Origin: Methylobacter sp. KS41
GTDB lineage: Bacteria; Pseudomonadota; Gammaproteobacteria; Methylococcales; Methylomonadaceae
DNA: 64,000 nucleotides
Reading direction: 5' to 3'
Assembly (NCBI GenBank): GCA_002862125.1
Contig: PHSP01000003.1
Location: forward strand, 558,001 to 622,000
The stretch's first letter is position 1, and the number at the start of each line of letters is the position of its first letter. The notes beneath the pieces were generated by a model. The model was not told where the DNA came from and ran no database searches. It saw nothing but the letters and a program-made list of their open reading frames with translations. The translations under genes were made by a program, and so were the position numbers. Positions 30,275 through 45,489 of the stretch are shown here, in pieces.

Positions 30275-30553
30275 TTATTTGTCTGACTGAATTTCCTGTT
30301 TGAGATCACCATAACCCTTCTGGACCTTGCCGACATTCTTTTGGATATTGCCTTCTACCTGCATACCCTTGTCGTCCAGTATCACACCAGTGGCTTCCTT
30401 GACTTTACCTGTGGCTTCATCGACTCGTCCTTCTACTTGATCCTTGTTGATAGGGGCTGCATCCTTGCTTTCTTCGGCATAAACGCCAAAGGAACAGAAT
30501 GTCAAAACAAGAGCTGCCACTAAATTGGTGTGCTTTATATTGATAAGTTTCAT
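30275..30553 (-). CDS. CsbD-like protein with signal peptide
   Basis: A 92-residue protein made of a signal peptide (MKLINIKHTNLVAALVLTFC, cleavage likely after VYA near residue 26) and a CsbD domain (NKDQVEGRVDEATGKVKEAT, then IQKNVGKVQKGYGDLKQEI). CsbD proteins are small stress-induced proteins and are normally cytoplasmic; this copy should be periplasmic. Two shorter CsbD copies without signal peptide lie at 30653 and 45178. A GATAAT-rich start region with TCCTTTAAA precedes it on the minus strand. Confidence 0.82.
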   Translation of the reverse strand: MKLINIKHTNLVAALVLTFCSFGVYAEESKDAAPINKDQVEGRVDEATGKVKEATGVILDDKGMQVEGNIQKNVGKVQKGYGDLKQEIQSDK

Positions 30554-30652: not shown

Positions 30653-30829
30653 TTAGTCGTCTTTCTTAATATCTTCCTTGAGATCGCCAAACCCCGCTTG
30701 GACCTTGCCGACGTTCTTTTGGACATTTCCTTCTATTTCCAAAGCATCGTCATCCAGCACCACACCGACAGCTTCCTTAACTTTACCTTTGATTTCTTCG
30801 ACTCGGCCTCTTATTTGATCTTTGTTCAT
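30653..30829 (-). CDS. CsbD family stress protein
   Basis: A 58-residue CsbD protein, MNKDQIRGRVEEIKGKVKEA, then VQKNVGKVQAGFGDLKEDI. The ATG at 30829 is chosen over a longer upstream frame because GGAGACAC precedes it and because it matches family length. CsbD was first described as a general stress protein in Bacillus; the exact role is unknown. A palindrome of the local regulon (30940-30953) lies 111 bases upstream of the start. Confidence 0.88.
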   Translation of the reverse strand: MNKDQIRGRVEEIKGKVKEAVGVVLDDDALEIEGNVQKNVGKVQAGFGDLKEDIKKDD

Positions 30830-30939
30830 GAGTGTCTCCTGATAATTATTTAGCCATGACCTGATAGTCAGTGCCAGAGTATGGAATAATGTTCCCCATC
30901 GCTCATTTATAACGATACACGCAAAAGGTAACTTGATCC

Positions 30940-30953
30940 GTGCGGTAACGCAC
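30940..30953 (-). promoter_or_regulatory. CRP-spaced palindrome, site 1
   Basis: GTGCGGTAACGCAC, a perfect 5+5 palindrome, 111 bases upstream of the CsbD start at 30829. Read towards that gene, it has the GTGTGCG...CGCACGGA flank seen at the other sites. The almost identical site 7 is at 113 bases from another csbD gene. Confidence 0.65.
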
Positions 30954-30997
30954 ACACATTAGGGTTTCCTTAGGCTCGCCACTTAACATAAGCAGAA

Positions 30998-31363
30998 CTA
31001 TGGATTGCCGACGCGAATAACCGGGAGTCCACTCAAAACCCCGAATACACTCAGCAACCACAGAACCACCGCGATGATCACCACAATATACAATATCTGC
31101 TTGATGCGCGCGTCCATCGGTATGTAACTGTTGACCAGCCACATCAACAGACCTACTACAATCAGAGCCACCACTATCGAAACCAGTGGACCCGGGAACA
31201 GGCCCAAGACGCCGAATGCGCGCAGCAGCCACAGCACCACCGCAATGACCACCACGATGTTCAGGATATTCTTGATACGGGCTTCCATCGGTATATAGTT
31301 GTTGACCAGCCACAGCAGCAGGCCGACGACGATAAGAACGACCACTAACGAAATTATGTTCAT
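30998..31363 (-). CDS. duplicated Thivi_2564-type membrane protein
   Basis: A 121-residue membrane protein composed of two near copies of one 55-residue unit. Each has a hydrophobic helix (LIVVGLLLWLVNNYIPM), a short basic loop (EARIKNIL / DARIKQIL) and a second helix (VVIAVVLWLLRAFGVL). Single-unit proteins of this type are known as Thivi_2564 family. The fused form should span the membrane four times. The duplication is also visible in the DNA, so it is fairly recent. Role unknown; neighbours suggest envelope stress. Confidence 0.75.
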   Translation of the reverse strand: MNIISLVVVLIVVGLLLWLVNNYIPMEARIKNILNIVVVIAVVLWLLRAFGVLGLFPGPLVSIVVALIVVGLLMWLVNSYIPMDARIKQILYIVVIIAVVLWLLSVFGVLSGLPVIRVGNP

Positions 31364-31507
31364 TGCACTTCTCCTAAAAATAAAAAAATTGATTGTCGTA
31401 TAAAATCATAACTAACCACCTAACCTCCTCCATATCGGTGGCGTCAAGACCGCCCGGAATTGCAGCGGGTAGATCACTTGAGTAGAAACTCTCAACTGAA
31501 AACCCAT

Positions 31508-31750
31508 TTAGAACACAAGCCAGAGTGCGACAAGAGGTGCGATATTCAGCATGATGATCCCGATTTTATAGACGGCCATGCCGGCGTAGTGGAGCGCGTC
31601 AAAGGTTTCAGCCGAGAGATTGAACCATCGACTATGGAGGCGGTACATCCAGTCGTGGGCAAGGCTGAACGCAGCAAACCAGATCATGAGGATCGCATAG
31701 TTGAAGGCGAGACTGTAAAGCAAAAGCTCTTTGATGGCATCGGGATTCAT
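31508..31750 (-). CDS. DUF6868-like small membrane protein
   Basis: An 80-residue protein with two membrane helices (LLYSLAFNYAILMIWFAAFS and AVYKIGIIMLNIAPLVALWL) separated by a conserved loop AHDWMYRLHSRWFNLSAETF. It fits the DUF6868 family as I recall it. Function unknown. The gene stands alone between two short intergenic gaps. Confidence 0.7.
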   Translation of the reverse strand: MNPDAIKELLLYSLAFNYAILMIWFAAFSLAHDWMYRLHSRWFNLSAETFDALHYAGMAVYKIGIIMLNIAPLVALWLVF

Positions 31751-31899
31751 GGCTATACCTCGTGTTTTTTATACTGAACGGAGTATTTAAATTGTCCGAA
31801 ATTTTTGTAAAGATAAATCTGGGTACATAATTAAAAAAGTTAAGACCGGGGTTACAAACCCCGAACCGCTCAGGTTCTTTGGCTAGTGCCTCATGGTGT

Positions 31900-32319
31900 C
31901 TATTTAGCTATAGCTTTGTTTTGCTCCATTTGTTGCAATTGCTGTTCGGATGGCGCCAGAGGTTCTTTAAATTTTGGTATAGGTGCATTGATATCAGCAG
32001 CAGGGGGTTCAGGTGCAGTGATATTAGCCTTCTTATGCTCCATTTGTTGCAATTGCTGTTCGGATGGCGCCAGGGGTTCTTTAAATTTTGGTATAGGTGC
32101 ATTGATATCAGCAGCAGGGGGTTCAGGTGCAGTGATTTTAGCCTTCTTATGCTCCATTTGTTGCAATTGCTGTTCGGATGGCGCCAAGGGTTCTTTGAAT
32201 TTTGGTATAGGTGCATTGATATCATCTGCAGGGTCGACTTCGGCCAACAAAGATGTAGACACGATGCTTAAGCAGGCAGCCAAGGCCAAACCAAGATAAG
32301 TATTATTATTCATAACCAT
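31900..32319 (-). CDS. secreted protein of three 38-residue repeats
   Basis: A 139-residue protein. A signal peptide (NNNTYLGLALAACLSIVSTS, cleavage likely after LLA near residue 26) is followed by three copies of a 38-residue unit, starting DINAPIPKFKEPLAPSEQQL and going on QQMEHKKAKITAPEPPA; the last copy is shortened. LAAC near residue 16 could also be a lipobox, but it would leave a very short signal. The units are rich in Pro, Gln and Glu and probably extended. Start may be the second Met (32313). Function not known; site 2 of the local regulon lies 268 bases upstream. Confidence 0.65.
   Translation of the reverse strand: MVMNNNTYLGLALAACLSIVSTSLLAEVDPADDINAPIPKFKEPLAPSEQQLQQMEHKKAKITAPEPPAADINAPIPKFKEPLAPSEQQLQQMEHKKANITAPEPPAADINAPIPKFKEPLAPSEQQLQQMEQNKAIAK
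31903..32223 (-). repeat. 114-bp tandem repeat, 2.8 copies
   Basis: Three head-to-tail units (32223-32110, 32109-31996 and 31995-31903) of 114, 114 and 93 bp code for the repeats of the secreted protein. They differ at only a handful of positions, including silent ones, so they were copied recently or kept similar by recombination. Copy number may vary between strains. Confidence 0.85.
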
Positions 32320-32900
32320 TCTCTCTAGTGATAATCATTAAATAATTCTTTTATAATTCTTGAAAATATCATTTTATTGCTGTTGATCTCCTTGTTCTCC
32401 GATTCCTGATTGGTGTTGCCGACATTGTTGATGTTTTCCATCAAACGTTGGTCATTTATCCTAAGGTAAAGAATCAAGCATAACCTAAGATGAGCAAGTC
32501 ATTGGCCAGAAACCCTGCTTCGAGGAGAGGCTGGAGTGCGTCAAACTCATAAAAAAATACTTTAATCGTAAAACCAGTCGCAGTCGGTACGGTAGCGCAC
32601 ATAATCCTAAAAACCGCGCACAACTCTAATCCATTTTATGAGGATAAATTTGAGCCTGCTGAGGGATGCCTGCTTCCCATCAGGCATGATGATCATACAG
32701 GGATAATCTGACAAAATAGAATTACACTCACCCTGCAACGCCCGAGTAATTTTTGCCCCGTGTCAACAATATTAAACACTCGCCCTGTCGTATTGTGTTA
32801 TAAAGTTGCACTAAAACTGTCATTTCAGTCCCAACCTTCATCGTTCTTTTGCTTTTTGATTTTCGCCCTATAGGTTGCGCACTTTTTAGAGACAAGAAAA
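32320..32900. other. intergenic region with regulon site
   Basis: No gene seen on either strand. It holds divergent control regions for the repeat protein (minus) and the Crp/Fnr gene (plus), and includes palindrome site 2 at 32587. Confidence 0.6.
32587..32600 (-). promoter_or_regulatory. CRP-spaced palindrome, site 2
   Basis: GTACGGTAGCGCAC. Read on the minus strand it is TTATGTGCGCTACCGTACCG, with the same flanks as the other sites. It could serve the repeat protein (minus) or, less likely from its orientation, the regulator gene 300 bases to the right. Confidence 0.55.
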
Positions 32901-33635
32901 ATGGTCGCCATTATGACCCCCAAACAAAACCATCTTCTCGCCGCCTTGCCTGCGGAAATATTCGAGCGACTCTCTCCCCATCTGGAACTGATCTCGATGC
33001 CGCTCGGTGAAGTCCTCTACGAATCCGGCGGCAAATTGCAATATGTTTATTTTCCGACGACCGCCATCGTGTCCCTGCACTACCTCATGGAGAGTGGCGC
33101 ATCGGCCGAAATCGCTGGTGTAGGCAATGAAGGCGTACTCGGAATTTCACTTTTCATGGGCGGCATTACCACACCCAGCTTGGCCACCGTGCAGACTGCG
33201 GGCTGCGGTTACCAGTTAAAAGAGCGGTTGATGATAGAGGAGTTCAATCGTGCCGGGGGGCGCCGTTCGGGTTTATTTCAAAAATTGATGCTACGTTACA
33301 CCCAGGCATTAATGACACAGATTTCCCAAACGGCAGTCTGCAATCGACATCATTCGATAGAGCAGCAACTGTGCCGCTGGCTGTTGTTAACTCTAGATCG
33401 ATTGCCCTCGCAAGAATTGACCATTACCCAGGAATTGATTGCTTGCATGCTCGGCGTACGCCGCGAAGGCATCACGGAAGCCGCCGGGAATTTGCAGCGT
33501 GCCGGTTTGATTAGTTACCGCCGTGGTCACATCACGGTACTTGACCGGTCCGGATTGGATTCCAACGCTTGTGAATGCTATCAAGTAGTCAAGAAAGAAT
33601 TCCATCGATTGCTTGGCAATGCAGGATCCAAGTAG
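32901..33635 (+). CDS. Crp/Fnr family transcription regulator
   Basis: A 244-residue Crp/Fnr-type protein. The N-terminal cyclic-nucleotide-binding-like barrel (PLGEVLYESGGKLQYVYFPT, then AEIAGVGNEGVLGISLFMGG) lacks the Arg-Ser-Ala phosphate-binding segment of CRP and the cysteines of FNR, so the signal is not cAMP or an iron-sulfur cluster in the usual way. The C-terminal winged helix has QELIACMLGVRREGITEAAG; the R-E pair lies where CRP's DNA-reading residues are. It is in the middle of a set of palindromes with CRP-like spacing and is the best candidate for their binder. The start could also be the second Met at 32913. Confidence 0.87.
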   Translation: MVAIMTPKQNHLLAALPAEIFERLSPHLELISMPLGEVLYESGGKLQYVYFPTTAIVSLHYLMESGASAEIAGVGNEGVLGISLFMGGITTPSLATVQTAGCGYQLKERLMIEEFNRAGGRRSGLFQKLMLRYTQALMTQISQTAVCNRHHSIEQQLCRWLLLTLDRLPSQELTITQELIACMLGVRREGITEAAGNLQRAGLISYRRGHITVLDRSGLDSNACECYQVVKKEFHRLLGNAGSK

Positions 33636-33661
33636 GCTTTTCATAAAACCCTTCGTCTTAT

Positions 33662-33675
33662 GTGCGATAACGCAC
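33662..33675 (+). promoter_or_regulatory. CRP-spaced palindrome, site 3
   Basis: GTGCGATAACGCAC, with flanks TTAT and GGACAG. It lies 27 bases after the regulator gene and 332 bases before the sensor kinase, towards which it is oriented. It might act in kinase control. Confidence 0.55.
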
Positions 33676-34006
33676 GGACAGCGGCAGTCTTAATTGCTAT
33701 AAAAAAGGACGCTCAAAATTTATCCGAACTGAATGTAATTGCCCGGCACCTGCAAGTAAAAGCATGTTTTTTTGTGTGCAGGATGAGCGAATGAGCTCGA
33801 TAGGATAGGTAGAATGTAGGTTGAGTTAGCGGCTTTATGGTTCGACAGGCTCACCATCGACGGACTACCCAAGAAACTCAAACATTCATCAAATGTTGGC
33901 GACGACACCGCCGTTTAGAAGGAAGGATTGGGTTTGCCATGCGCGCTTCTTGCTACCACGACGAAATCCGTCTCCAGACCACTAATGATTTGTATAAAAG
34001 TACACC

Positions 34007-36112
34007 ATGCCCAACAAAATACGTGATCCTGCAATTCTTAACCCCGCCCCCGGCACGACGGGGGGGGAAGGCATCACCGATGTCCAGCGCCAGGAGGCCT
34101 TGCTTAAAACCGGGGCCTTGCAGAACGCGATTTTCAATAGCGCCAACTTTTCAAGTATCGCCACTGACGCGAAAGGCGTCATTCAGATATTCAACGTCGG
34201 CGCTGAATGCATGCTGGGCTACGCGGCAGCAGACGTGATGAACAAGATCACGCCGGCCGACATTTCCGATCCGCGTGAAGTGATAGCGCGCGCCAAGTCG
34301 TTGAGCGTCGAAATCGGAACCCCGATTACGCCGGGCTTCGAGGCATTGGTGTTCAAGGCTTCACGCGGCATCGAGGATATCTATGAGCTGACCTACATCC
34401 GCAAGGATGGCAGCCGCTTCCCGGCGGTCGTGTCGGTCACTGCGCTGCGTGACGATCAGGGGGCCATCATCGGTTACCTGTTGATCGGCACCGACAACAC
34501 CGCGCGCAAGCAGACCGAAGCAGAGCAGAAAAAGCTCGATCAGCGTCTGCGCGACCATCAGTTCTACACACGCTCTCTGTTCGAAGCCAATATCGACGCG
34601 CTGATAACCACCGATCCATCCGGCTTCATTACCGACGTCAACAAACAGATGGAAGCGCTTACAGACTGCACGCGTGACGAATTAATCGGCACGCCGTTCA
34701 AGAACTACTTTACTGATCCGGTGCGGGCCGAGGCGGGCATCAAGCGCGTGCTAAGCGAAAAAAAGATCACCGACTACGAGCTTACAGCGAGAGCCAAGAA
34801 TAACGAGGAAACAGTGGTGTCCTACAACGCGACCACCTTCTATGACCGCGACGGAAAGCTACAGGGCGTGTTCGCCGCTGCGCGCGACATCACTGAACGC
34901 AAACGCTTGGATCAGGTGCTGCAGGATAAGAATGCCGAACTGGAGAGCGCAAAGTCAGTGGCGGAAAAAGCCAATCTCGCAAAATCGGATTTCCTTTCCA
35001 GCATGAGCCATGAGCTGCGTACCCCTCTTAATGCCATTCTCGGCTTCGCCCAGTTACTGGAAACAGGTAACCCGCAACCAACGGCCGCCCAGGTCGTAAG
35101 ACTGCACCAGATTATCAAAGCAGGTTGGTATCTGTTGGAACTGATTAACGAAATTCTTGATCTTGCGGTGATCGAGTCCGGCAAGCTGCCGCTGTCCCGA
35201 GAACCCGTGTCGTTAATCGAGGTCATACGCGAAAGTCAAGCCATCATCGAATCACAGGCGCAACAACGCGGCATCCATTTAATCTTTCTCCCGTTTGATA
35301 ACACCTGGTATGCCAATGCCGATCGAACCCGAATGAAGCAGGTTCTGATCAACCTGCTTTCCAATGCCATCAAATACAATAGTGAACAGGGAACGGTCGA
35401 GGTAAAGTGTACGCTAAGAACCCCGGAACTCATTCGCATCAGCATTATAGACAGCGGAGCCGGGTTGCCTCCGGAAAAGCTGGTGCAACTGTTTCAGCCA
35501 TTCAATCGCCTGGGGCAAGAAACCGGTACCGAGGAAGGCACTGGCATCGGCCTGGTGGTAACCAAGCAACTGGTCGAACTGATGGGAGGCGCAATCGGTG
35601 TGGAAAGTACCGTCGGTGTGGGCAGCGAATTCTGGATCGAATTGATCAGGGACGATACCCCGCAACTTGACGCCGGGCATACAATGCCCGCACAACTTGA
35701 GGTGCAAACTCAGGGCGACCCGAAGCTACGCACCCTGCTCTATGTGGAAGACAATCCGGCCAACCTGATGCTGGTCGAGCAAATAATTGAGGGTCACCCA
35801 CATGTCCGCATGCTAGGCGCTTGCGATGGCAATCTCGGCATAGCATTGGCGCGCGCCCATCTCCCGGAAGTGATCCTGATGGACATCAATCTGCCGGGCA
35901 TCAGCGGCATCCAGGCACTGAAAATCCTGAGCAAAGACCCGGCAACGGCGCACATCCCCGTCATTGCCCTCAGTGCCAATGCCATGCACCGCGATATCGA
36001 GAAAGGCTTGGAGGCTGGATTTTTCCGGTATCTCGCCAAACCCATCAAGATCAATGAATTTATGAACGCCTTGGATGATGCACTGAAATTTTCAGAAAAG
36101 GAATCAATTTAG
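34007..36112 (+). CDS. hybrid sensor histidine kinase (PAS-PAS-HisKA-HATPase-REC)
   Basis: A 701-residue soluble kinase without membrane helices. Two PAS domains come first (about residues 38-165 and 190-300, the second ending in AARDITERKR), then a short coiled coil and HisKA with His335 in SSMSHELRTPLNAILGF. The ATPase domain has NLLSNAIKYN, DSGAGLPPE and GTGIGLVV. The C-terminal receiver has LYVEDNPANL, acceptor Asp626 in ILMDINLPG and the conserved Lys in YLAKPIK. It should sense a cytoplasmic signal and pass phosphate to its own receiver and then to a partner. A REC-PAS protein follows 23 bases downstream, probably in the same operon. Confidence 0.93.
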   Translation: MPNKIRDPAILNPAPGTTGGEGITDVQRQEALLKTGALQNAIFNSANFSSIATDAKGVIQIFNVGAECMLGYAAADVMNKITPADISDPREVIARAKSLSVEIGTPITPGFEALVFKASRGIEDIYELTYIRKDGSRFPAVVSVTALRDDQGAIIGYLLIGTDNTARKQTEAEQKKLDQRLRDHQFYTRSLFEANIDALITTDPSGFITDVNKQMEALTDCTRDELIGTPFKNYFTDPVRAEAGIKRVLSEKKITDYELTARAKNNEETVVSYNATTFYDRDGKLQGVFAAARDITERKRLDQVLQDKNAELESAKSVAEKANLAKSDFLSSMSHELRTPLNAILGFAQLLETGNPQPTAAQVVRLHQIIKAGWYLLELINEILDLAVIESGKLPLSREPVSLIEVIRESQAIIESQAQQRGIHLIFLPFDNTWYANADRTRMKQVLINLLSNAIKYNSEQGTVEVKCTLRTPELIRISIIDSGAGLPPEKLVQLFQPFNRLGQETGTEEGTGIGLVVTKQLVELMGGAIGVESTVGVGSEFWIELIRDDTPQLDAGHTMPAQLEVQTQGDPKLRTLLYVEDNPANLMLVEQIIEGHPHVRMLGACDGNLGIALARAHLPEVILMDINLPGISGIQALKILSKDPATAHIPVIALSANAMHRDIEKGLEAGFFRYLAKPIKINEFMNALDDALKFSEKESI

Positions 36113-36135
36113 ACAAATGAAACTGGACACATACA

Positions 36136-36975
36136 ATGATTAGCAAGCAGGAAACTCTTAACGCCAGCATTTTGATCGTTGACGATCAGGAGTCCAATGT
36201 GCAACTGCTTGGGGAAATGCTGCGTGATGTCGGCTATGCTTGCATTGCCTCGACAAATGATCCTTATAAAGTTTGCGCACTTCACCAGAAAGACCATTAC
36301 GACCTGATCATGCTCGATCTGCAGATGCCCGGCATGGATGGTTTTGAAGTCATGGAAGGCCTTAAGGAAATCGAAGCGGATGGTTACCTGCCGGTACTTG
36401 TGATTACTGCCCAACCGGCCCACAAGCTACGCGCGCTTGCCGCGGGCGCGAAAGATTTTATCAGTAAACCGTTTGATCTGGTCGAAGTACAGACGCGTAT
36501 CCATAACATGCTGGAAGTACGGCTGTTGTACAAAAAACTCGAACAACACAACCAAATGTTGGAACAAACGGTGCTGGAACGAACTGCCGAACTACGTGCA
36601 AGCGAAGCTCGTTTCCGCCGTTTTACTGAGTTGTCGTCAGACTGGTACTGGGAGCAGGATAAAACCGGGCATTTCACCATGATTTACGGCCCGGTGTTTG
36701 AAATGCTCGGAATCAGGGTCAATGACACGCTGGGAGATCAGGGAACACTCTGGAATGAGGCCGAGCGAGAAATACTTGAAGCGAACTTGGCCGCCAGACG
36801 ACCGTTCCTGGATTTCGTCTACAGCCGGACCAATCCGGACAGCTCGCGGCAATATTTAATGGTGAGCGGTGAACCGACGTTCGACTCTTCCGGCCGTTTT
36901 ACCGGCTACCGTGGGGTCGGCAAGGACGTGACCGAAACGATGCACCCATACGAAGAATCGCCCGCGAACAAATAA
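36136..36975 (+). CDS. response regulator with REC and PAS domains
   Basis: A 279-residue protein. The N-terminal receiver has the acidic pair in ILIVDDQES, acceptor Asp61 in LIMLDLQMPGMDG, and Lys in FISKPFD. A coiled coil (LEQHNQMLEQTVLERTAELR) leads to a PAS domain that ends in YRGVGKDVTE. After this, related proteins usually go on into a GGDEF, EAL or kinase domain; here the protein ends after 15 more residues. So it has no recognisable output domain. The missing output could be a natural single-signal relay or a truncation. It is the likely partner of the hybrid kinase. Confidence 0.88.
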   Translation: MISKQETLNASILIVDDQESNVQLLGEMLRDVGYACIASTNDPYKVCALHQKDHYDLIMLDLQMPGMDGFEVMEGLKEIEADGYLPVLVITAQPAHKLRALAAGAKDFISKPFDLVEVQTRIHNMLEVRLLYKKLEQHNQMLEQTVLERTAELRASEARFRRFTELSSDWYWEQDKTGHFTMIYGPVFEMLGIRVNDTLGDQGTLWNEAEREILEANLAARRPFLDFVYSRTNPDSSRQYLMVSGEPTFDSSGRFTGYRGVGKDVTETMHPYEESPANK

Positions 36976-37278
36976 GTTGTTACCATAAAATATGTTGCAT
37001 ACCCCTTGTTGGGCAGGAATGCCCAATAAAGCTTCAGCAAAAATAGCGACTCCCCCCGCAGGGTGGAGCCGCGCCCGAAAGTTGTTAATGACTCAGGGCT
37101 ACCGGGCGAACTCGGTCCACTCCCATGTTACCCCCGTATTCCTGGCGTCTAATTTGTTTCTAACCTGAATTAAAAAGTATGATTTTCCAACACCTGAATT
37201 TTCCTTGATTTATTACCATTAAAAATTCAGGCATCCGTATAGCTCCCAGAACAGTTATAAGTCATAATTGAAGCATTG

Positions 37279-37755
37279 TTACTTGCTTGGTGCACTCACA
37301 TTTACAATCAGGTCATTTTGCACTGATTTCACATTCTTCTGGCCATTGGCCACTTCCATCGCTCTGCCGATGTTTTGCTCGGAATCAACCGTGCCGCTCA
37401 ACTTTACGACGCCTTTGACCGTGGTCACCTCAATATGAGATGCCCTAAGCAAGGAGTCACTTAAAATCGCCGCCTTAACCCTTGTGGTAATAACTGAGTC
37501 ATCGATATATTCTCCAGATGTTTCGGCTTTATCGGTTACCGACTCCTTTGCACCTTCAATTTTTTTATTGGCCTGTTCAGTCACGTGCTCAATCTTTTGC
37601 TCAGTATTTTCAGCCGCGCGATCGATTTTTTTTCCTGCTTTTTCTGCTGTTCCTTCTTGTTGGCAACCAGCCAGTCCGAGTACAGCGGATAAACAGGCAA
37701 TCACAAGAACTCTATCAGTTAAAATATTTTGCTTGTATTCATTTGTTGTTTTCAT
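37279..37755 (-). CDS. BON-domain lipoprotein with amphipathic helix
   Basis: A 158-residue protein with a lipoprotein signal (lipobox LAGC near residues 28-31), a 55-residue charged amphipathic helix (KKIDRAAENTEQKIEHVTEQ...), and a BON domain (SGEYIDDSVITTRVKAAIL, then VVKLSGTVDSEQNIGRAMEV). BON domains bind phospholipid surfaces; OsmY is the well-known relative. It should sit in the outer membrane facing the periplasm. Palindrome site 4 is 157 bases upstream. Confidence 0.87.
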   Translation of the reverse strand: MKTTNEYKQNILTDRVLVIACLSAVLGLAGCQQEGTAEKAGKKIDRAAENTEQKIEHVTEQANKKIEGAKESVTDKAETSGEYIDDSVITTRVKAAILSDSLLRASHIEVTTVKGVVKLSGTVDSEQNIGRAMEVANGQKNVKSVQNDLIVNVSAPSK

Positions 37756-37911
37756 GGGTTATTCCTTAGTTGTGTTTTTTATAGTGCGGCAAGTGACATA
37801 GCGGTACTCCCGTTAGAGAAAAATGTCAGAAAATAGAAACCTCTCTATTTGCCTCAGGCGCAGTGAGCTGAAAACTCAGCTAAATTCTAGCGACAAGATC
37901 TGGCACGGTCT

Positions 37912-37925
37912 GTACGGTATCGTAC
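37912..37925 (-). promoter_or_regulatory. CRP-spaced palindrome, site 4
   Basis: GTACGGTATCGTAC; on the minus strand TTATGTACGATACCGTACAG. It is oriented towards the BON lipoprotein gene at 37755. Both half-sites are the variant GTACG. Confidence 0.6.
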
Positions 37926-38296
37926 ATAAGGCAGTAAGTGGTCGTTTCAACATTCAAGAGCCAGCCAATTGACATAAATAAAATTCGCTTGGAAAGCGGG
38001 TTTTATTGTTTATAGCATCAAGAAAATTCTGACCGGCTTTTCGTCCTTAAAACTTCATCAATCGCCGATCAAGATCCACTCGATACAACCGTTTTCTTTC
38101 AGACTTACCCGCTTCAGTACTGTTATCGCCAGCCCGTCGTGGCCTATTGACATCGCTGTCTCTGGAAGAAGCTAGGCTATGGAAAGCCGGTTATGGCGTC
38201 AGCCAGTTTCACATTCCGTGGTTTCTCGCAACGGCATGACCAATTAGATTCCCCCGGCTTATCCTCGATACCGGCTTTCCGATCGAACGGGTGTAT
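37926..38296. other. non-coding stretch
   Basis: No gene is supported. Frames in it show no family signal; its right part (38160-38290) looks like remnant DNA of an unknown element. Confidence 0.4.
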
Positions 38297-38310
38297 GTGT
38301 GCTAACGCAC
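38297..38310 (+). promoter_or_regulatory. CRP-spaced palindrome, site 5
   Basis: GTGTGCTAACGCAC, with one mismatch in the left half. The flanks (GTAT, TGAGGG) follow the family pattern in the direction of the RlpA-like gene 240 bases downstream. Confidence 0.5.
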
Positions 38311-38549
38311 TGAGGGCAGAGAGCTTCTGTGGTAATTTGGCTTCCAGGCTAGTGGAGTTACCCTCACTAGCAACATTAGGTTATAGGAGCGGCTTGTCGC
38401 CTCATAGTAATTGTTGCAGGTAATGGTTAATTTATTTTCCTACCTATGGGCGATACCCCCCTACAGCAGGAGAGCATTTGAACCTATTGCAGCCAATTAT
38501 TTGTATTTTATTGAAAAGTTGCATAGATATCTGTGCAAGAGGAGAGAGC

Positions 38550-39170
38550 ATGTCATATCAAACTGTTACACACAACAACACCTCGTCCAAGAACGAGCAG
38601 CTTAGGTTTATTTCCTGTTCAAAGTGCTTGTCCAGGAAAGTCTTGATAACGGCCAGCGGTGCCATGTCCCTCCGCGAATGGCTTGCAGGCGTCTCGCTAG
38701 TAACCTTGATCGGAGCCCTGGCTATTTCCGGCTGTAGTTCAAAAGACTCGAACGAGCAAGGCAAACTAGCACCGCAAGAAAAAGAGAGCGCCGTCAACAA
38801 ACCTCTACACAAGGAGGTCGGCAAGGCGTCTTGGTATGGGCCTGGGTTTCAAGGCCAGGAAACTGCCAATGGCGAGACCTTTAACAAAAATGAAATGACG
38901 GCCGCCCATCCGAGTTTGCCGATGGGTACCATGGCCAAAGTGACCAACCTCGAGAATGGCAAGAAGGTCGAAGTCAGGATCAATGACCGTGGACCCTTTG
39001 CCGAGAATCGCGCCATCGATCTATCCAGCGCAGCGGCTAATAAGCTTGATATGAAAAAGGACGGCACCACCGAGGTCAAGATTGAGAGCAAACCTGTAAA
39101 GAAGAAGAGCTCCACCCGCAAATCCAGCAAGGAAAAATTGAGGGCAAAAAGGGCTAAATTATCAAATTGA
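38550..39170 (+). CDS. rlpA: RlpA-like septal lipoprotein
   Basis: The product is 206 residues from the ATG at 38550, which has a GAGGAGAGAG ribosome site, or 168 residues from the ATG at 38664. The second start places a normal lipoprotein signal at the N-terminus (MSLREWLAGVSLVTLIGALA, lipobox ISGC), so it may be the one used. A double-psi beta-barrel follows: GKASWYGPGFQGQETANGE, NEMTAAHPSLPMGTMAKVTN, and VRINDRGPFAENRAIDLSSA. RlpA proteins cleave or bind naked glycan strands of peptidoglycan. The last 25 residues are lysine-rich. No SPOR domain is present. Confidence 0.85.
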   Translation: MSYQTVTHNNTSSKNEQLRFISCSKCLSRKVLITASGAMSLREWLAGVSLVTLIGALAISGCSSKDSNEQGKLAPQEKESAVNKPLHKEVGKASWYGPGFQGQETANGETFNKNEMTAAHPSLPMGTMAKVTNLENGKKVEVRINDRGPFAENRAIDLSSAAANKLDMKKDGTTEVKIESKPVKKKSSTRKSSKEKLRAKRAKLSN

Positions 39171-39319
39171 CATCATGCCACCGCCGTCTTTTTTCAACTG
39201 CGTACGTTACACCACAGAGTGCGCCCCCGCCTTACTTTTTATCCACGTATCAACAAATCAACCGCTTAAAACTTTATATCAATCATTTTAGGGTGAATTG
39301 AGTCTACTAAGCCTGGTAT

Positions 39320-39333
39320 GTGCGCTACCGTAC
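39320..39333 (+). promoter_or_regulatory. CRP-spaced palindrome, site 6
   Basis: GTGCGCTACCGTAC with flanks GTAT and TGACTG. It is 190 bases upstream of the BON-lipoprotein start at 39524 and may control the whole operon down to 40971. Confidence 0.6.
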
Positions 39334-39523
39334 TGACTGTGGACAGTTTTGCGATTATAGTTATTTTAAGTTTTTGAGGTGACCTTATTCTCTCCCAGAA
39401 ACTTGGTTCTTGTATTTAGAACCTATCTCAGTAGAGCGTTGTTCACCCTGATACCTGTCTCCTGAGCTTGTCGATGGGTTTCTTCAACCTACCGGTATTA
39501 TTCACTTAAATAGAGATTTACTC

Positions 39524-39838
39524 ATGAAACACCTTATTAGATTTTTTTCCGCATTTTTTTTAGCGCTGACGTTGTTAACTGCCGTGGGTTGCGCATCAAC
39601 GCAAAAGCACGAAGGAACTGGGGAGTACGTTGACGACAGCGTAATCACCAGCAAGGTTAAGGCGGCCATATTGAATGAGCCTGGCTTGAGCTCCGCCGAG
39701 ATCAACGTTGAAACCTTCAAGGGTGAAGTTCAATTAAGCGGCTTCGTGAATTCCCGTGCTGATATCAACAAAGCGGTTGCGGTCGCACGCAGCGTCGGTG
39801 GTGTGAAGTCAGTCAAGAATAGCATGCAGCTCAAATAG
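39524..39838 (+). CDS. BON-domain lipoprotein
   Basis: A 104-residue protein with a lipoprotein signal (MKHLIRFFSAFFLALTLLTA, lipobox AVGC) and one BON domain (TGEYVDDSVITSKVKAAILN, then VQLSGFVNSRADINKAVAVA). It is close to the C-terminal half of the lipoprotein at 37279 but lacks the long helix. It should act at the outer membrane in osmotic or envelope stress. It is first in a run of four genes with gaps of 14, 13 and minus 4 bases. Confidence 0.88.
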   Translation: MKHLIRFFSAFFLALTLLTAVGCASTQKHEGTGEYVDDSVITSKVKAAILNEPGLSSAEINVETFKGEVQLSGFVNSRADINKAVAVARSVGGVKSVKNSMQLK

Positions 39839-39852
39839 AAGAGGAAACCATC

Positions 39853-40083
39853 ATGGAAACCATAGACAAAGCATCTCATTCAGCACATGAAGCTGTCGAT
39901 AAGGTCGCCAGTGCGACCAATCAGGCAGCGGAAGGTCTTTGCGAAAAAGGAGCGCAACTGAAAAATGCCGAGCGGCAATTGTTAGAGAATTGCCGCAGTT
40001 ATGTCCGCGACAACCCCATTACGTCACTGGGCATTGCAACAGCGGCCGGCTTTCTGCTGAGCCGCCTGTTGAACGGCCGTTAG
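39853..40083 (+). CDS. YqjD/ElaB-like (DUF883) protein
   Basis: A 76-residue protein with a helical charged part and a C-terminal membrane segment, RDNPITSLGIATAAGFLLSR, which is the DUF883 hallmark. Members such as YqjD and ElaB are inner-membrane proteins that bind ribosomes in stationary phase. Shine-Dalgarno GAGGAAA precedes it. Its place before a YqjE-like gene repeats the yqjD-yqjE order known from enterobacteria. Confidence 0.85.
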   Translation: METIDKASHSAHEAVDKVASATNQAAEGLCEKGAQLKNAERQLLENCRSYVRDNPITSLGIATAAGFLLSRLLNGR

Positions 40084-40096
40084 ATCGGCAAACATC

Positions 40097-40540
40097 ATGG
40101 ACCCGGATACCATAGAGGATGAGGCTCCCGGGAAAACCGCAATGCGCGGCGATCCGACAAGCGATTCTACTACCGTTCCTGAAGATGCTCAGTCGTTATG
40201 GAATGAGCTACTTGGACTAATTTACGATCGCTTCCGGCTCGCAGCACTGGAAACGCGGCTGGCGGGCGAGAGTCTGGTGTCCATGATTATGGCGGGAGTG
40301 ATGGTTGCGTTCTTGCTGAGTAGTGCTTGGCTGGGACTCATGGCTGCCGCCGTGCTGGAGTTGATCGGCAACGGTATCGTGGCAAGTAGCGCCATACTAC
40401 TTGCCGTTGCTTTCAATTTGCTGCTCTCGTTGTTCCTCTGTCGGGTGATGCGCCGGAAGAGTCGTTATCTGCACTTTCCCGCAACCCTCCGCTCTCTTCA
40501 GCCCAGGCCTCCCGGGCGTCGGAATGCGCAGAAGTCATGA
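40097..40540 (+). CDS. YqjE-like holin-family membrane protein
   Basis: A 147-residue protein with two long membrane helices (LVSMIMAGVMVAFLLSSAWL and ASSAILLAVAFNLLLSLFLC) following an amphipathic stretch YDRFRLAALETRLAGES. This fits the phage-holin-like/YqjE family. It does not look like a lytic holin in context; it lies in a chromosomal stress operon. Its end overlaps the next start by four bases. Confidence 0.82.
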   Translation: MDPDTIEDEAPGKTAMRGDPTSDSTTVPEDAQSLWNELLGLIYDRFRLAALETRLAGESLVSMIMAGVMVAFLLSSAWLGLMAAAVLELIGNGIVASSAILLAVAFNLLLSLFLCRVMRRKSRYLHFPATLRSLQPRPPGRRNAQKS

Positions 40541-40971
40541 TCAAGACCTACCTTTCAAGCGTAAGCAAAGCCAAGTCCCTGACGGCTCAAATCAGGGATG
40601 CGGAGAGGCGGGTGTTGAGTAGTCAACAGCGGGTGGGTGTTCGCACCGCCACGCTGATTCGGAATATACACCAGCAGATGACAGCTCCGGCAACCTTGCT
40701 GCTAGCGGGTGGCCTTGGATTTATCCTTGGCGAACTTACCAAGGGCAAAAACCTAAACAGCTGCGGCACTGCCGATAAATCTCGCACATCCGAGACTACG
40801 CCCTTGAGGACTGCGCTAAACCTCTTAACCTCGGTCCACGCTTTGTACACCGCCTTGCCCATAGCCTGGATAATGAAGTCCTTCTATCAACTGGGCCCGT
40901 CGGATCGTCAAGCGACCGAACGACAAGCCCGCCCTGTGGCAGCCGGTAATTGCGGAAAGTCAAGCCGATAA
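40537..40971 (+). CDS. YqjK-position hypothetical protein
   Basis: A 144-residue protein coupled to the YqjE-like gene by an ATGA overlap. A charged N-terminus (IRDAERRVLSSQQRVGVRTA) is followed by a short hydrophobic segment (ATLLLAGGLGFILGELTKG), and another weak one near residue 105. It occupies the position of yqjK in enterobacteria but I see no firm sequence match. Probably membrane associated. Confidence 0.65.
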   Translation: MIKTYLSSVSKAKSLTAQIRDAERRVLSSQQRVGVRTATLIRNIHQQMTAPATLLLAGGLGFILGELTKGKNLNSCGTADKSRTSETTPLRTALNLLTSVHALYTALPIAWIMKSFYQLGPSDRQATERQARPVAAGNCGKSSR

Positions 40972-41042
40972 CTTTGGGCTGATTTTTTGGATACCACAGA
41001 GTGTCGTGTACGTGTTGGTCTGAAGCCAGTTCAATAACAAAC

Positions 41043-41885
41043 TTAATTATTGGTCGAAACCGCTGCCTTTGGCAAAGGTTGATTGGGTATTTGGTTAAAT
41101 GCCGTTTGTTGAGCCCAAACCGCCATATAACTCAGCCTCGCCTCTCCGATGATGGTCGCAAATGATGCATCAGCAGCATCACGACCTGTGCCGATACGGA
41201 CAAACCCTTCAACCGGCGCCATTCGTGTAGCATCAAACAAATACCAGCGAGCCCCCAGATAGGCTTCAAAAAACCCATGAAAATCCGGCGGCTGCAAAGC
41301 CACGGCGTATCCTGAAATATAACGTGCGGGAATGCATAACGCCCGGCACAAGGCAATGGCGAGGTGCGCATAATCCCTGCATACACCGATGCGCTGTATC
41401 AATACGTCGCAGGCGCTGGTACTTTCGCCGCTACTGCCTGGTTGATAGTCGAGATTGCTGTTTATCCAGTCGCAAATCGCAGTAACCCTGGAAAATCCGG
41501 GCTCAACGTTGCCAAACATTCGCAAGGCAAAATGGGTCAAGCGATCAGACTCGCAATAACGGCTGGGGTTAAGGTAAGGCAATACTTCGTTTGGCAATTG
41601 GGAGTACCCGGCCTCGGTAATTCCTGACGTATTATATATTTCAGGACTTAAATTCACAGTCGCACGGTATTGGAGTAGCAAGTCGCAGGGTGCTACACTT
41701 AGCCGGTACACTTGAATAGCTTCCGTGCCCAAACTGCTGGCCTCGTATTGAATGTTGGGGTTTAACTGTAAAGTCTCTTCGCAGATGATCTGGTGCCCGG
41801 TTCTTGCCGCAGCTACGTTAAACAGGAAGCTTGTGGGTTTTGTGACTGAATACGTTAGGTCGCAGCCTACTTAAATTGTTGTCAT
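41043..41885 (-). pseudogene. transglutaminase-like protein with stop at codon 5
   Basis: From the ATG at 41885 (AAAGG ribosome site) the frame reads MTTI, then TAA at 41873-41871, then VGCDLTYSVTKPTSFLFNVA without further stops to 41043. That is the N-terminal domain usual for bacterial transglutaminase-like proteins, so the stop is a nonsense change at codon 5. The core is intact: Cys in RIGVCRDYAHLA, His in DFHGFFEAYLG, Asp in WYLFDATR. Without suppression, translation could restart only at a weak TTG (41732), losing about 51 residues. The family includes peptidases of unclear substrate. Confidence 0.75.
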
Positions 41886-42297
41886 AATTGTTAACCTTTT
41901 GCCGCATGGCAAATAAATATGCCTCTGGATTAGTTTAAGTTATCAGAAAATAGCGGCATGCATCAATTCATTGAAAAATCATTAACTGTTGCGGATAAAC
42001 GTTTTTGTCATCACCAGAAATCATGAGTTAACCCGTAAGACTGGTAAATAGTAAGGTGGCTTCGCCATAAATATTTTTCTGTGAGTATGATTTCCTGAGT
42101 TTTCTGGCAAATTGTCTGATATAGCCAATAAAGTATATTTTTAACACAATTAAACACTCGTAGTTTCGGGATGAAAGTTTCTGAAAACCACCACCTGTAG
42201 TGCGGTTTTGCATAAGATTACGGCTTCTTTCGTCGTTTTGTCCGTTGGTTCATGCATCCTGATTTACTACGCTAAAGCGCCATTGGAGGGCTTCTGC

Positions 42298-43929
42298 TTA
42301 CCTGTGCATTGTTTTGAGTGCATCGAAGAGTACGCCGACATCATGCTGTCCTTTGAATACCGGCGGGATCTCCTTCTTGATCTCAAGAAGGGTATAGACG
42401 GCCATTAGCGCCGATCTTACAGAATACTCAACGGTAAACACCACATCATCCGGGATTTCGCAAAACTGCCCGATAAACGCGAAATTCTTCGCTCCAACCG
42501 GCACTACGTCTGGCCGATCCCCTTTGACTCTGGGCATGAATTGGCTGGTGATGAACGGCATCATGCAAGGAATACAAATTGCCGCATCAATGATAGGCTG
42601 CGCCTTGCCGCCAAGTTTGAGGTGCTGGAATAACTCAATTAGAATCTCTTCACCGTTACATTCTGACATAGGCTTCTTGACGAAGTTACCAATCCTGTCC
42701 GGGAATAGCCCATAGCCCCAAAATACGAATATATTCTCAGGTTGGTTGATGAAGTGCGGCTGATGCGCCAGAACGATACTCATGAACCAGTTCGAATCCG
42801 TCAGCGTGAATAAGCCTCCCGTGCCTGCCTCATTGCCGGTAAATTCTTCTATGAACTGGAAGAATGCCGGATCGTTTAGAGTCACGGTGAACGACTGCCA
42901 TTTGGTCTGGTCAATATGATCGGAAAAAACCGCGGGATGTCCAAACCCTGGGCGACCTTTGGCAATGTCTTCCCACAGCGACCAGGCACCGTTTGATTTG
43001 TTTGAATTTAGAATGGCAGGCGCTGTCATAGACCCCAGGCTAGCATTTTCTGTCATACATCCCAGCGTCACAAATACCAGATCATCCGGTGCGACGGCAA
43101 TACTGTTAGGCTCGCCATTGCTGCTATACCGAATGCCCTTTACCGCCCGGTGTTCGCCGCCTAAGTCGAAATTAAGTCCCGTGACCTCGGTGTTCAACGA
43201 GAACTGCACCCCTTGCGCCTTAAGCCAGGTAATCAGCGGCAGTATCATCGAATCATACTGGTTATAAGGTGTGCGCCAGACGCCGCCCATTTTGTGGAAA
43301 TTAGGAAATAATTGAATAAATCGCAACAGATACCGTTTGAGCTCGACCGCGCTATGCCAGGGTTGAAACGCAAACATCGTCGCCCACATTAGCCAGAAAT
43401 TATTCTCGAAAAACGTGGGTGAAAACCAGTCTTCGATGCGTTTAGCTCCCAGCGAATCTTCAGAATGCATAATCAGCGCGAGTAAATCCAAACGATCCTT
43501 TTCACTCAGCTCAAAAGATGACACATCAACTTTTTGGCCATCCCTAACCAAGCGACATCTGGAGGAACTGACGTATTTGTGGCTAAATTCGAAAATTTCA
43601 TCTTTGACGCTCTTGGCTTGATCAGTCAGTGAGGGAATGCTTGCAAAGAGATCGTAGGTGCAGACGTAATGCTCTTCAATCATCCGACCACCACGAACGA
43701 CATAGCCTTTGTCAGGTGAACCGGCCCCATCCAAACTGCCACCAGTGACCTTAAGTTCCTCGAAAATGTGAATACTCTCGCCTGGGATAAGACCGTCCCG
43801 TATAAGAAAAGCAGCACCCGCGAGGGCGGCGATTCCGCTGCCGACGAAATAAACCTTCCTCTTGTTGTGCTGCGTAGATCTAGGCTCGACTGAAACGTCT
43901 GCTTTATCGCTTTGATGTGAGTTCTGCAT
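42298..43929 (-). CDS. ohyA: oleate hydratase
   Basis: A 543-residue flavoprotein of the oleate hydratase (myosin-cross-reactive antigen) family. The FAD-binding segment is VYFVGSGIAALAGAAFLIRD near residues 26-45, followed by GGSLDGAGSPDKGYVVRGGR and MIEEHYVCTYDLFASIPSL. FQPWHSAVELKRYLLRF and GGVWRTPYNQYDSMILPL are also family hallmarks. The enzyme adds water to cis-9 double bonds of free fatty acids to give 10-hydroxy acids, often as a detoxifying step. The length is slightly short compared with usual members, but all main blocks are seen. It stands alone. Confidence 0.93.
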   Translation of the reverse strand: MQNSHQSDKADVSVEPRSTQHNKRKVYFVGSGIAALAGAAFLIRDGLIPGESIHIFEELKVTGGSLDGAGSPDKGYVVRGGRMIEEHYVCTYDLFASIPSLTDQAKSVKDEIFEFSHKYVSSSRCRLVRDGQKVDVSSFELSEKDRLDLLALIMHSEDSLGAKRIEDWFSPTFFENNFWLMWATMFAFQPWHSAVELKRYLLRFIQLFPNFHKMGGVWRTPYNQYDSMILPLITWLKAQGVQFSLNTEVTGLNFDLGGEHRAVKGIRYSSNGEPNSIAVAPDDLVFVTLGCMTENASLGSMTAPAILNSNKSNGAWSLWEDIAKGRPGFGHPAVFSDHIDQTKWQSFTVTLNDPAFFQFIEEFTGNEAGTGGLFTLTDSNWFMSIVLAHQPHFINQPENIFVFWGYGLFPDRIGNFVKKPMSECNGEEILIELFQHLKLGGKAQPIIDAAICIPCMMPFITSQFMPRVKGDRPDVVPVGAKNFAFIGQFCEIPDDVVFTVEYSVRSALMAVYTLLEIKKEIPPVFKGQHDVGVLFDALKTMHR

Positions 43930-44154
43930 GGTAAAGTTCCTGTTTTGATGAATGATTTTGATCTACACGAGCGAGCAAAAAAGTGGTCAAGTCTAAACAT
44001 AATACTTTCTCTTTTAATTACGGCATAAGCGTAGCCCATTGTTTTTCATGCAAAAGACTTTCCTCTGTCGAGAACTGGCCTGACTCCCTTTTAATTGCGT
44101 TGCACCCTGCTGGTATGGCTGGATCGACCCCTGGTCTAATCATCGACGCAGCCG

Positions 44155-44376
44155 CTAGCTCTTCTTGCTCGAAAAAAGCAGGAGCCCGCCGCCAGCCACT
44201 ATCAACGCCACACCGGCCCAGGCCGGGACATTGACCGTCTGCGTGTCTTTAACCGACAGCTCGAACGGGCCTAGCTTGGCTTCCTGAGTTTCACGGGTAT
44301 AACTGAAACGACCATACACCAGCCCCAATAAGCCAGCTATGATCAGCGCGATAGCCACGATCTTGATTGCACTCAT
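44155..44376 (-). CDS. DUF3185 membrane protein
   Basis: A 73-residue protein with two membrane helices (IVAIALIIAGLLGLVYGRFS and AGVALIVAGGGLLLFSSKKS) on both sides of a polar loop ending in QTVNVPAW, which matches DUF3185. The ATG at 44376 with AGGAGAGA is chosen over longer frames. Role unknown; probably part of the envelope-stress set. Confidence 0.82.
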   Translation of the reverse strand: MSAIKIVAIALIIAGLLGLVYGRFSYTRETQEAKLGPFELSVKDTQTVNVPAWAGVALIVAGGGLLLFSSKKS

Positions 44377-44815
44377 TTTGTCTCTCCTATAATTGACACT
44401 CTTGGAGTCCGGCCTCGGGCGGAGCACCCAGGAGTGCCCTGCATAAGCCGGGACTCTAAGCGTGCCGAACCGCTCCACCTATCCCTGCCCGCTGCATAAA
44501 ACCATTCAGGCACGAGGTCCTCATGGGGTTTACCAAGAAAGGTGGCGTAATAGACCGGCAATAGTCTCTTCGGTGCTTACTAATACATCGACGATTACGG
44601 TTACTATGGTAGGAATTACATAACCGACGTCATTTACTCACCTTCATGATATTGCCAATATCATCGATTAGGCCTACAACTGTATTTCCATGATTTCAAC
44701 CTATCAATTTAGATTAATAGGCAAGCCTGGAAACAGTCATTACGTTGTGGGATTGTGGGTTGCCTGATAGATCGCTCCGGCCGATACCACGTTGCATAAG
44801 CATACTCCAGTGCCG
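44377..44815. other. non-coding stretch
   Basis: No gene supported. A minus-strand frame at 44373-44561 has no family signal. Nothing that fits the palindrome motif was seen here. Confidence 0.45.
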
Positions 44816-44965
44816 CTACAGGACGCGTCGGCCTTGAATGATACGCAGAATAATCATGATGACTGCGATAACCAAAAGAATGTGAATGAATCCGCCGACT
44901 GTGTACGAGGACACCAATCCCAGTACCCAGAGGATGATTAGGATGATTGCAATACTTTCAAGCAT
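44816..44965 (-). CDS. lmo0937-family small membrane protein
   Basis: A 49-residue protein with two membrane helices, MLESIAIILIILWVLGLVSS and GFIHILLVIAVIMIILRIIQ, the usual form of the lmo0937 family. The ATG at 44965 has GGAGAAG upstream. Function unknown; members are induced by stress in several bacteria. Confidence 0.82.
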   Translation of the reverse strand: MLESIAIILIILWVLGLVSSYTVGGFIHILLVIAVIMIILRIIQGRRVL

Positions 44966-45177
44966 GTGTGCTTCTCCGTAAGAGGCCATCAATTGACGGC
45001 GATATGAACTAGAGATAAATTTATGAAGTATTACCGAAGGTTTTAAGCAATGCCTGCCCATAAACCGGTGAACTTCATGTCCATCTCCTGTGAAAAAGTT
45101 ATTTGAGAACATTTCATTGCGGCGGTGCAGAAGGCCAGCCTGTCTGAACTCGGCTGCACCGCTCAGCAGCGCTCGTT

Positions 45178-45363
45178 TTAGATGCTGTCAATATCTTTCT
45201 TAATATCTTCCTTGAGATCACCGAAGCCCGACTGAACCTTCCCGACGTTTTTTTGGACATTTCCTTCTATCTCCATGCCCTTATCGTCTAGTATCACGCC
45301 TGCGGCTTCTTTGACCTTTCCTTTGACTTCTTCGACTAAACCTTCTACTTGATCTTTGTTCAT
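45178..45363 (-). CDS. CsbD family stress protein
   Basis: A 61-residue CsbD protein (MNKDQVEGLVEEVKGKVKEA; VQKNVGKVQSGFGDLKEDI). It is nearly the same as the copy at 30653, and both the coding part and the upstream region (GGAGACA-CATG spacing, TGATAATTAT) are alike, so they arose by duplication. Palindrome site 7 is 113 bases upstream. Confidence 0.88.
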   Translation of the reverse strand: MNKDQVEGLVEEVKGKVKEAAGVILDDKGMEIEGNVQKNVGKVQSGFGDLKEDIKKDIDSI

Positions 45364-45475
45364 GATTGTCTCCTGATAATTATTAGTAGCCATGACCAGA
45401 TGGCCATAACCTAAGCGTGAAATGAGGTTGCCCACCGCTTAACCAATATATTACACACAAAACTGATTGCGGTCG

Positions 45476-45489
45476 GTGCGGTAACGCAC
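45476..45489 (-). promoter_or_regulatory. CRP-spaced palindrome, site 7
   Basis: GTGCGGTAACGCAC, same core as site 1. On the minus strand it reads CTATGTGCGTTACCGCACCG. It is at nearly the same distance from csbD as site 1. Confidence 0.65.

Follow-up and report, generated by a model that had tools for sequence, protein, structure and literature searches.

A candidate Crp/Fnr class-II stress regulon with a TGTnCG-N4-CGnACA promoter code in Methylobacter sp. KS41 and its relatives

Introduction

CRP proper binds sites of the form TGTGA-N6-TCACA, and FNR proper carries N-terminal cysteines for a 4Fe-4S cluster and binds TTGAT-N4-ATCAA. General-stress regulons controlled by RpoS and AlgU contain target families that overlap with those described below. 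Here we analyze a 64,000-nucleotide stretch of the Methylobacter sp. KS41 genome (contig PHSP01000003.1, positions 558,001 to 622,000; hereafter the window), in which seven oriented palindromes with the core TGTnCG-N4-CGnACA lie around the gene at position 32901 for a Crp/Fnr-family regulator, the 32901 protein. This protein is very probably a class-II activator of an envelope and general-stress regulon; we infer its binding to the palindromes, its action by activation rather than repression and its role in stress from promoter layout, co-occurrence with the sites and the genes that follow them.

With E. coli CRP, described here from general knowledge, the system shares the fold, the Arg-Glu pair of the recognition helix, a G at 6.5 bases from the center of the site and a site centered at -41.5. 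It differs in its half-site, which is TGTnCG and not TGTGA, in a Glu where CRP has Arg185 (aligned by eye), in a cyclic nucleotide (cNMP) domain that falls under the Pfam cut-off, and in a small stress regulon as against the catabolic genes of CRP. FNR, DNR and NtcA belong to the same superfamily and, as generally known, share the class-II spacing, and in profile comparison the 32901 protein matches chains of NtcA and DNR weakly; unlike FNR it has no N-terminal cysteines, its half-site is not TTGAT-like and its targets are others.

RedB of Rhodobacter capsulatus is reported to have a non-palindromic 12-bp motif from chromatin immunoprecipitation (ChIP), with A/T at fixed bases, and targets in energy metabolism (PMC9603854). 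RedB likewise represents a previously unstudied Crp/Fnr subgroup, and its study is the nearest of this sort among the papers found; the present system is set apart from it by its palindromic motif and different targets. As for stress regulons, csbD is reported to be under sigma-B and OsmY/BON proteins are described as osmotic stress proteins (PMC7660261). The sigma-B regulon overlaps with the present one in target families, as do those of RpoS and AlgU, whereas control here would lie with a Crp/Fnr activator on sigma-70-type promoters and not with an alternative sigma factor.

A Crp/Fnr class-II regulon is known as a kind, and the binding code, target set and portability reported here appear to be new within the literature searched: full-text searches, with subscription papers mostly outside their scope, turned up no paper that describes such a motif or regulon. 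The genes probably controlled (csbD, BON, DUF3309, DUF3096, DUF5670, DUF883 and PRC-barrel genes) are widespread genes of stress or unknown function, and a promoter code defined over 42 bases would allow the regulon to be predicted in many genomes, at least 593 relatives having turned up in a scan of named genomes. Some of these relatives come from culturable methanotrophs and Oxalobacteraceae. The code also offers a direct test of the regulon's signal.

Results and discussion

Seven oriented palindromes in one region of the genome

The pattern GTRYGNTANCGYAC occurs without mismatch at the seven sites listed in Table 1, on both strands at six of them and on one strand at 38297. A search of the whole genome (4 contigs, 4,741,940 bases) returned these seven places only, as 7 forward and 6 reverse matches, compared with 4 and 2 matches for the reversed pattern used as control. 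The even spread through the genome that the initial annotation had raised as a counter-case was not seen; all seven sites lie inside 14.5 kb. By the gene reading used they are all intergenic, as that annotation had stated, and some are overlapped by short unsupported open reading frames (ORFs).

Oriented toward the next gene, the sites read TATGTGCGNTANCGYACNGAC with single departures. The GTG-N8-CAC form, initially ascribed to most of them, is kept in 4/7. Because the third base is free in the sites of relatives, where it is A, G or T, the core is, on these sequences, rather to be written TGTnCG-N4-CGnACA. The flank TAT...NGA(C) is shared as first described: NGA stands 3′ of every palindrome, followed by C in 5/7, and points to the next gene at all seven sites. 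The distances given earlier from sites 1 and 7 to the csbD starts (111 and 113 bases, to 30829 and 45363) are also correct.

A weight matrix trained on 88 strict-pattern sites, all from other genomes, scored the seven sites at 25–46 bits, against 3.4 bits for the best reversed control in the window and 120 kb of its flanks. Scanning of the 120 kb flank with this matrix revealed one further site, C3:523055 (23.6 bits), 66 kb from site 1. Across the whole genome, a relaxed pattern with the central four bases free found six of the seven sites, the 523055 site and one match at 850589 (reversed control, 2 and 2 matches); 38297 was missed since one of its fixed bases differs. A pattern allowing 2 mismatches gave 405 strand-hits in the same genome versus 698 for the reversed control and, with no excess, was not used. 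The regulon, at first called local, is compact in the window's genome, apart from the eighth site outside the window, and dispersed in a same-genus relative, G148, in which sites are scattered along the chromosome, again with csbD and a BON gene behind some of them. "Local" therefore describes the window's genome.

Short, clustered, intergenic palindromes with an IS1595 transposase at their left edge could also be a dispersed mobile repeat, resembling repetitive extragenic palindromes (REP) or miniature inverted-repeat transposable elements (MITE), that is intergenic by chance. However, the seven sites have hardly any conserved column beyond the promoter-like stretch, where such a repeat would call for a longer conserved flank, and are not spread in the genome; their orientation and distance to a -10 box are strict, and the same gene families follow sites in other gene orders. 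The genome-wide count, the flank conservation and the -10 spacing led us to reject this explanation, which we hold to be scarcely credible.

A fixed -10 distance and a predicted class-II layout

Counted from palindrome position 1, a -10 box occupies positions 37–42 at all seven sites, as TANNNT at six and TATAAA at one. In 20,000 draws of nearby positions, TANNNT fell at one offset in at most 4/7, against the 6/7 observed. When that box is taken as -12 to -7, the dyad center falls at -41.5 and NNGA(C) at -35 to -31, with a spacer of 17 bases; the -35 box has lost TTG down to its G. Since -41.5 is the class-II position of CRP/FNR activators, the layout is, as judged from these distances, that of a CRP/FNR class-II promoter. 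The "CRP spacing" of the initial annotation is better read as CRP/FNR architecture of class II.

The same offset recurs in other genomes. Forty loci gave 76 oriented sites (82 places less 6 symmetric ones), and TANNNT stands there in 52 of them (next best offset 7). Among strict oriented sites of named loci it does so in 13 of 29 (next best 2; 49 places, with 8 that have NGA on each strand and 12 that lack it set aside), and in 69 of 182 places (out of 183) in 80 named loci (next best 12, one base away). The matrix behind the last count held the palindrome and NGAC only, not the -10 box, and the genomes behind the first and last counts partly overlap.

In the mechanism that we propose, the 32901 protein, presumably as a dimer, would bind TGTnCG-N4-CGnACA centered at -41.5 of sigma-70 promoters, where it would cover a defective -35 box, with NNGA(C) in place of TTGACA, and have a good -10 box beside it. 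The bound regulator would then recruit RNA polymerase as a class-II activator. Regulators of the Crp/Fnr superfamily can both activate and repress, and a dimer lying over the -35 region might instead silence the genes until a stress signal frees them. A site at -41.5 does touch the -35 box, a possible operator position, and the arrangement is symmetric, with NGA on both sides, in 6/82 places. Repression is nevertheless unlikely: the promoters look factor-dependent because the -35 box keeps only GA(C) of TTGACA, the invariant last C of the palindrome taking its first base, and a -10 distance so strict (one offset in 52/76) is expected more of an activator that touches polymerase than of an operator. 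We set aside an alternative sigma factor that would use the palindrome as its -35 box, given that the palindrome forms a dyad and tracks the Crp/Fnr gene and that the -10 box is of sigma-70 type.

The 32901 protein has a predicted CRP/FNR fold

That a Crp/Fnr protein is encoded amid the sites, as initially annotated, is borne out by a Crp-type winged helix-turn-helix above the Pfam cut-off (PF13545, 9.3e-14). The AlphaFold2 (AF2) model of the protein (pLDDT 87.3, pTM 0.85) has an N-terminal cNMP-type β-roll, a long helix and a DNA-binding domain, so that the CRP/FNR fold is present in the prediction; the best 50 Foldseek matches are chains of CRP, FNR, GlxR, NtcA and their kin (best E 6e-13). 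The Pfam cNMP_binding model reaches 21.4 bits with a cut-off of 27.5. In the profile alignment to GlxR, which is weak in this part, the Glu of GEL stands opposite a gap and the Arg opposite Thr.

All 25 orthologues of one alignment keep RREG in the recognition helix, and so do 40 more distant ones that were fetched partly by a peptide pattern containing RREG; most aligned orthologue matches start near residue 5 of the 32901 protein. Aligned by eye with E. coli CRP, the helix presumably retains Arg180-Glu181 and has Glu for Arg185, which fits sites that keep the G at 6.5 bases from the center and are free at 4.5. The first 101 residues contain no Cys, residue 102 being the first, so that the protein is not an oxygen sensor of the FNR type. 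Residues C147, H150, H151, C224 and C226, invariant in both alignments (CNRH was also in the fetch pattern), are candidates for sensing.

A second Crp/Fnr protein, ∼40% identical, adjoins the regulator in several genomes (e.g. L172:1014-1691 and L177:1368-2060); the two such paralogues that were aligned have RRVGIT in the recognition helix, where the 32901 protein has RREGIT. Tandem pairs with these differing helices would suit an explanation in which another Crp/Fnr protein, such as the adjacent paralogue, reads the sites and the 32901 protein is only linked to them. The window's genome has the sites though it holds no second match to the regulator at E <= 1e-20 (more distant Crp/Fnr proteins were not searched for), and the co-occurrence described next was measured with the 32901 protein itself. 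We consider another reader still more improbable than repression.

Sites and regulator co-occur across genomes

In a set of 151 genomes of the family, the regulator was called at E <= 1e-20 and sites by TGTNCGNTANCGNACNGA. The regulator is present in 64 of them. At least two sites were found in 61/64 genomes with the regulator versus 4/87 without it (Fisher 2e-33), and at least one in 63/64 versus 13/87. Compared with the reversed pattern, strand-hits numbered 412 versus 9 in genomes with the regulator and 28 versus 2 in the others. The association persists within genera: among the 11 in which some genomes have the regulator and others lack it, 39/42 genomes with the regulator and 4/40 without carry two or more sites (Cochran-Mantel-Haenszel, CMH, p = 2e-10), and in the window's own genus sites are found in 3/3 and 0/9, respectively. 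Occurrence of the motif in genomes without a 32901 orthologue, which the initial annotation had named as an objection, is therefore rare, although the four genomes exist.

A similar association was obtained from a class set of 369 genomes, with the regulator called at E <= 1e-30. At least one site was present in 28/44 genomes with the regulator versus 16/325 without (p 9e-20), and at least two in 17/44 versus 1/325; outside the window's own family the former comparison is 26/42 versus 16/325 (p = 3e-18). In a phylum set, for which the motif only was searched, 42/398 genomes had a match.

Recurring genes behind the sites

A tally of the genes behind sites in 40 loci yielded 129 candidate ORFs following 81 of 88 sites, several per site and some of them spurious, while 7 sites had no ORF; it shows 25 of 71 Pfam families and has no ORF control set. 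The families include BON (17), CsbD (12), apolipoprotein-like (8), OmpA (5), DUF3309 (5), GGDEF (4) and DUF3096 (4), together with DUF4398, DUF5670, PRC-barrel and PAS models (3 each), GH94 (NdvB; 2) and HTH_Crp (2).

Enrichment before csbD and BON genes, suggested at the outset, was evident in six genomes: a site lies within 800 bp upstream of 7/13 csbD and 8/23 BON genes, where ∼0.2% per gene is expected. All 15 of these sites face the gene, and some of the genes are second in a run. The 23 BON genes derive from 26 domain rows, with double-domain genes counted once, and each of the two sets includes one match below Pfam's cut-off; the window's 38297 site, which the search pattern misses, was added to the sites. 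The gene at 44155, called DUF3185 in the initial annotation, has no site in the window and is not named by Pfam or NCBIfam; elsewhere, 3/7 homologues have a site.

In the window's genome the regulon would comprise csbD, BON (OsmY-like), rlpA-like and DUF883/holin-like genes, the PAS hybrid kinase operon and a YflT-domain gene 66 kb from site 1. The predicted start of the last lies ∼218 bases downstream of the C3:523055 site, and its YflT match was made on an in-frame stretch that starts 16 codons before, and ends 8 codons short of, the ORF.

Breadth and mobility of the system

A scan of named genomes found at least 593 relatives, and the 80 best loci were used. Their titles include Nitrosomonadales, Oxalobacteraceae, Rhodoferax, Rhodocyclaceae, Thiocystis, Dyella and methanotrophs. 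Around the regulator, 67/80 of these loci carry matrix hits above 12 bits, with 206 strand-hits in all versus 0 for the reversed control. In 31/80 the 450 bp upstream of the regulator gene contain a site, on one strand or the other, which is consistent with autoregulation; in 17/80 there is one within 250 bp behind the gene, as with site 3. The window's hybrid kinase has a homologue no more than 2.5 kb downstream of the regulator in 36/80.

Homologues of the regulator at E <= 1e-30 are also held by 68 plasmid records, whose labelled members carry no annotation beyond "Crp/Fnr family transcriptional regulator". Neighbors of the regulator on a mobilizable Acidovorax plasmid are BON, an NdvB-like gene and an IS1595 transposase; matrix hits lie before the regulator (29.0 bits) and before the NdvB-like gene run (22.5 bits). 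At the Methylomagnum plasmid locus L217, where the regulator is 60% identical, there was no matrix hit over 6 bits. A quick tree was built from 43 rows, namely the window, 8 family loci and 34 of the 80 named loci; only 8/40 of its branches have good support. In it the window's regulator groups with G071 and Methylovulum and its two same-genus relatives group with Crenothrix, a branching that suggests horizontal transfer. The full promoter pattern matched 15 stretches in a scan of viral contigs, about chance by a rough estimate, and this line was dropped.

Several observations weigh against the 32901 protein as activator at these sites. At the promoter level, TANNNT stands at the expected offset in only 38% of places in the 80 distant loci, the extra own-genome site carries AATAAT in the -10 place, and both strong Acidovorax plasmid sites are without TANNNT at the offset. 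In its own genome the regulator gene has no good site facing it, site 2 read in its direction scoring 2.5 bits. Four genomes of the family have 3 to 7 sites and no regulator at 1e-20. One of them, G129 (7 strand-hits; L185, G129:C143, L038), yielded no more of the regulator than a piece of 57 residues, interrupted by one in-frame TGA; because this piece runs to the contig end, the gene may only be cut by the assembly, or it may have been lost. G034, G085 and G106 have no regulator match at 1e-5, and G106 is 79% complete. Conversely, three family genomes with a regulator match do not reach two sites: G135 has none and G038 one, their best regulator matches being only 54–55% identical, and G076, which is 73% complete, has one. 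No strict site was found in 16/44 class genomes with a regulator match, some of them with close orthologues (G380, 77% identity), and 11/80 named loci have no place over 10 bits in the DNA fetched.

More speculatively, the activator and its sites might form a portable, self-contained general-stress response. A Crp/Fnr regulator would then travel as a unit with its targets and a class-II promoter code of its own between Gamma- and Betaproteobacteria, plasmids included, and would place csbD/OsmY-type stress genes under a control independent of RpoS, sigma-B or AlgU. The signal would perhaps be redox or metal, with the invariant C147, H150, H151, C224 and C226 as the sensing residues. We regard this extension as possible but doubtful.

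Genes of the window cluster

The sites, their predicted promoters and the neighboring genes are collected in Table 1. The csbD gene at 30275..30553 is probably the second gene behind site 1, and the DUF883_C, holin-like and small protein genes are probably co-transcribed with the BON gene at 39524..39838.

Table 1. Palindromic sites, predicted promoter elements and genes of the cluster (window coordinates).
Feature	Coordinates	Strand	Context and evidence
Third csbD gene	30275..30553	-	Signal peptide by eye; Pfam CsbD 6e-15; domain 495 bp from site 1
csbD1	30653..30829	-	Pfam CsbD 2.2e-16
Site 1	30940..30953	-	Before csbD1; predicted promoter, -10 TATCGT 30912-30917; +1 ~30905; 32.9 bits
Repeat protein, three near-identical units	31900..32319	-	No Pfam or NCBIfam match
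Site 2	32587..32600	-	Before repeat-protein gene 31900-32319; predicted -10 TAAAGT 32559-32564; +1 ~32552; 45.7 bits
Crp/Fnr-family regulator, 244 aa, candidate activator	32901..33635	+	Pfam HTH_Crp_2, fold; recognition helix LGVRREGIT
Site 3	33662..33675	+	26 bases past regulator stop codon, before hybrid kinase gene; predicted -10 TATAAA 33698-33703; +1 ~33710; 34.4 bits
PAS hybrid histidine kinase with receiver domain	34007..36112	+	Pfam
Receiver-PAS protein, downstream of kinase	36136..36975	+	Pfam; no DNA-binding domain shown
BON-domain lipoprotein	37279..37755	-	Pfam BON 5.5e-16; lipoprotein by eye
Site 4	37912..37925	-	Before BON lipoprotein gene 37279-37755; predicted -10 TAGAAT 37884-37889; +1 ~37877; 43.6 bits
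Site 5	38297..38310	+	Before rlpA-like gene; predicted -10 TAATTT 38333-38338; +1 ~38345; 25.1 bits, lowest of seven
rlpA-like (DPBB) protein	38550..39170	+	Pfam DPBB_1 7e-26 on 38553-39167; ATG 38550 behind AGGAGAG
Site 6	39320..39333	+	Before BON / DUF883 / holin-like run; predicted -10 TATAGT 39356-39361; +1 ~39368; 43.2 bits
BON-domain lipoprotein	39524..39838	+	Pfam BON 1.3e-21; lipoprotein by eye
DUF883_C, holin-like (Phage_holin_3_6) and further small protein	39853..40971	+	ORF list; Pfam and NCBIfam searches
csbD2	45178..45363	-	CsbD domain C3:603196-603354, whole-genome Pfam search
Site 7	45476..45489	-	Before csbD2; predicted -10 TAATAT 45448-45453; +1 ~45441; 43.3 bits

The transposase gene that borders the cluster on its left (window 29250-30158) is of the IS1595 family (ISXO2-like). 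Adjoining the cluster is a gene for a 2923-aa NdvB-like protein (GH94; window 19673-28444), which has no site in front of it here; the NdvB-like genes in G073, in G286 and on the Acidovorax plasmid are preceded by a site. An MCRA-family gene, which we take to encode an oleate hydratase, lies within the region without a site (window 42298-43929). A 1777-aa protein with no Pfam match is encoded at window 47749-53082, in a low-GC stretch (∼35%).

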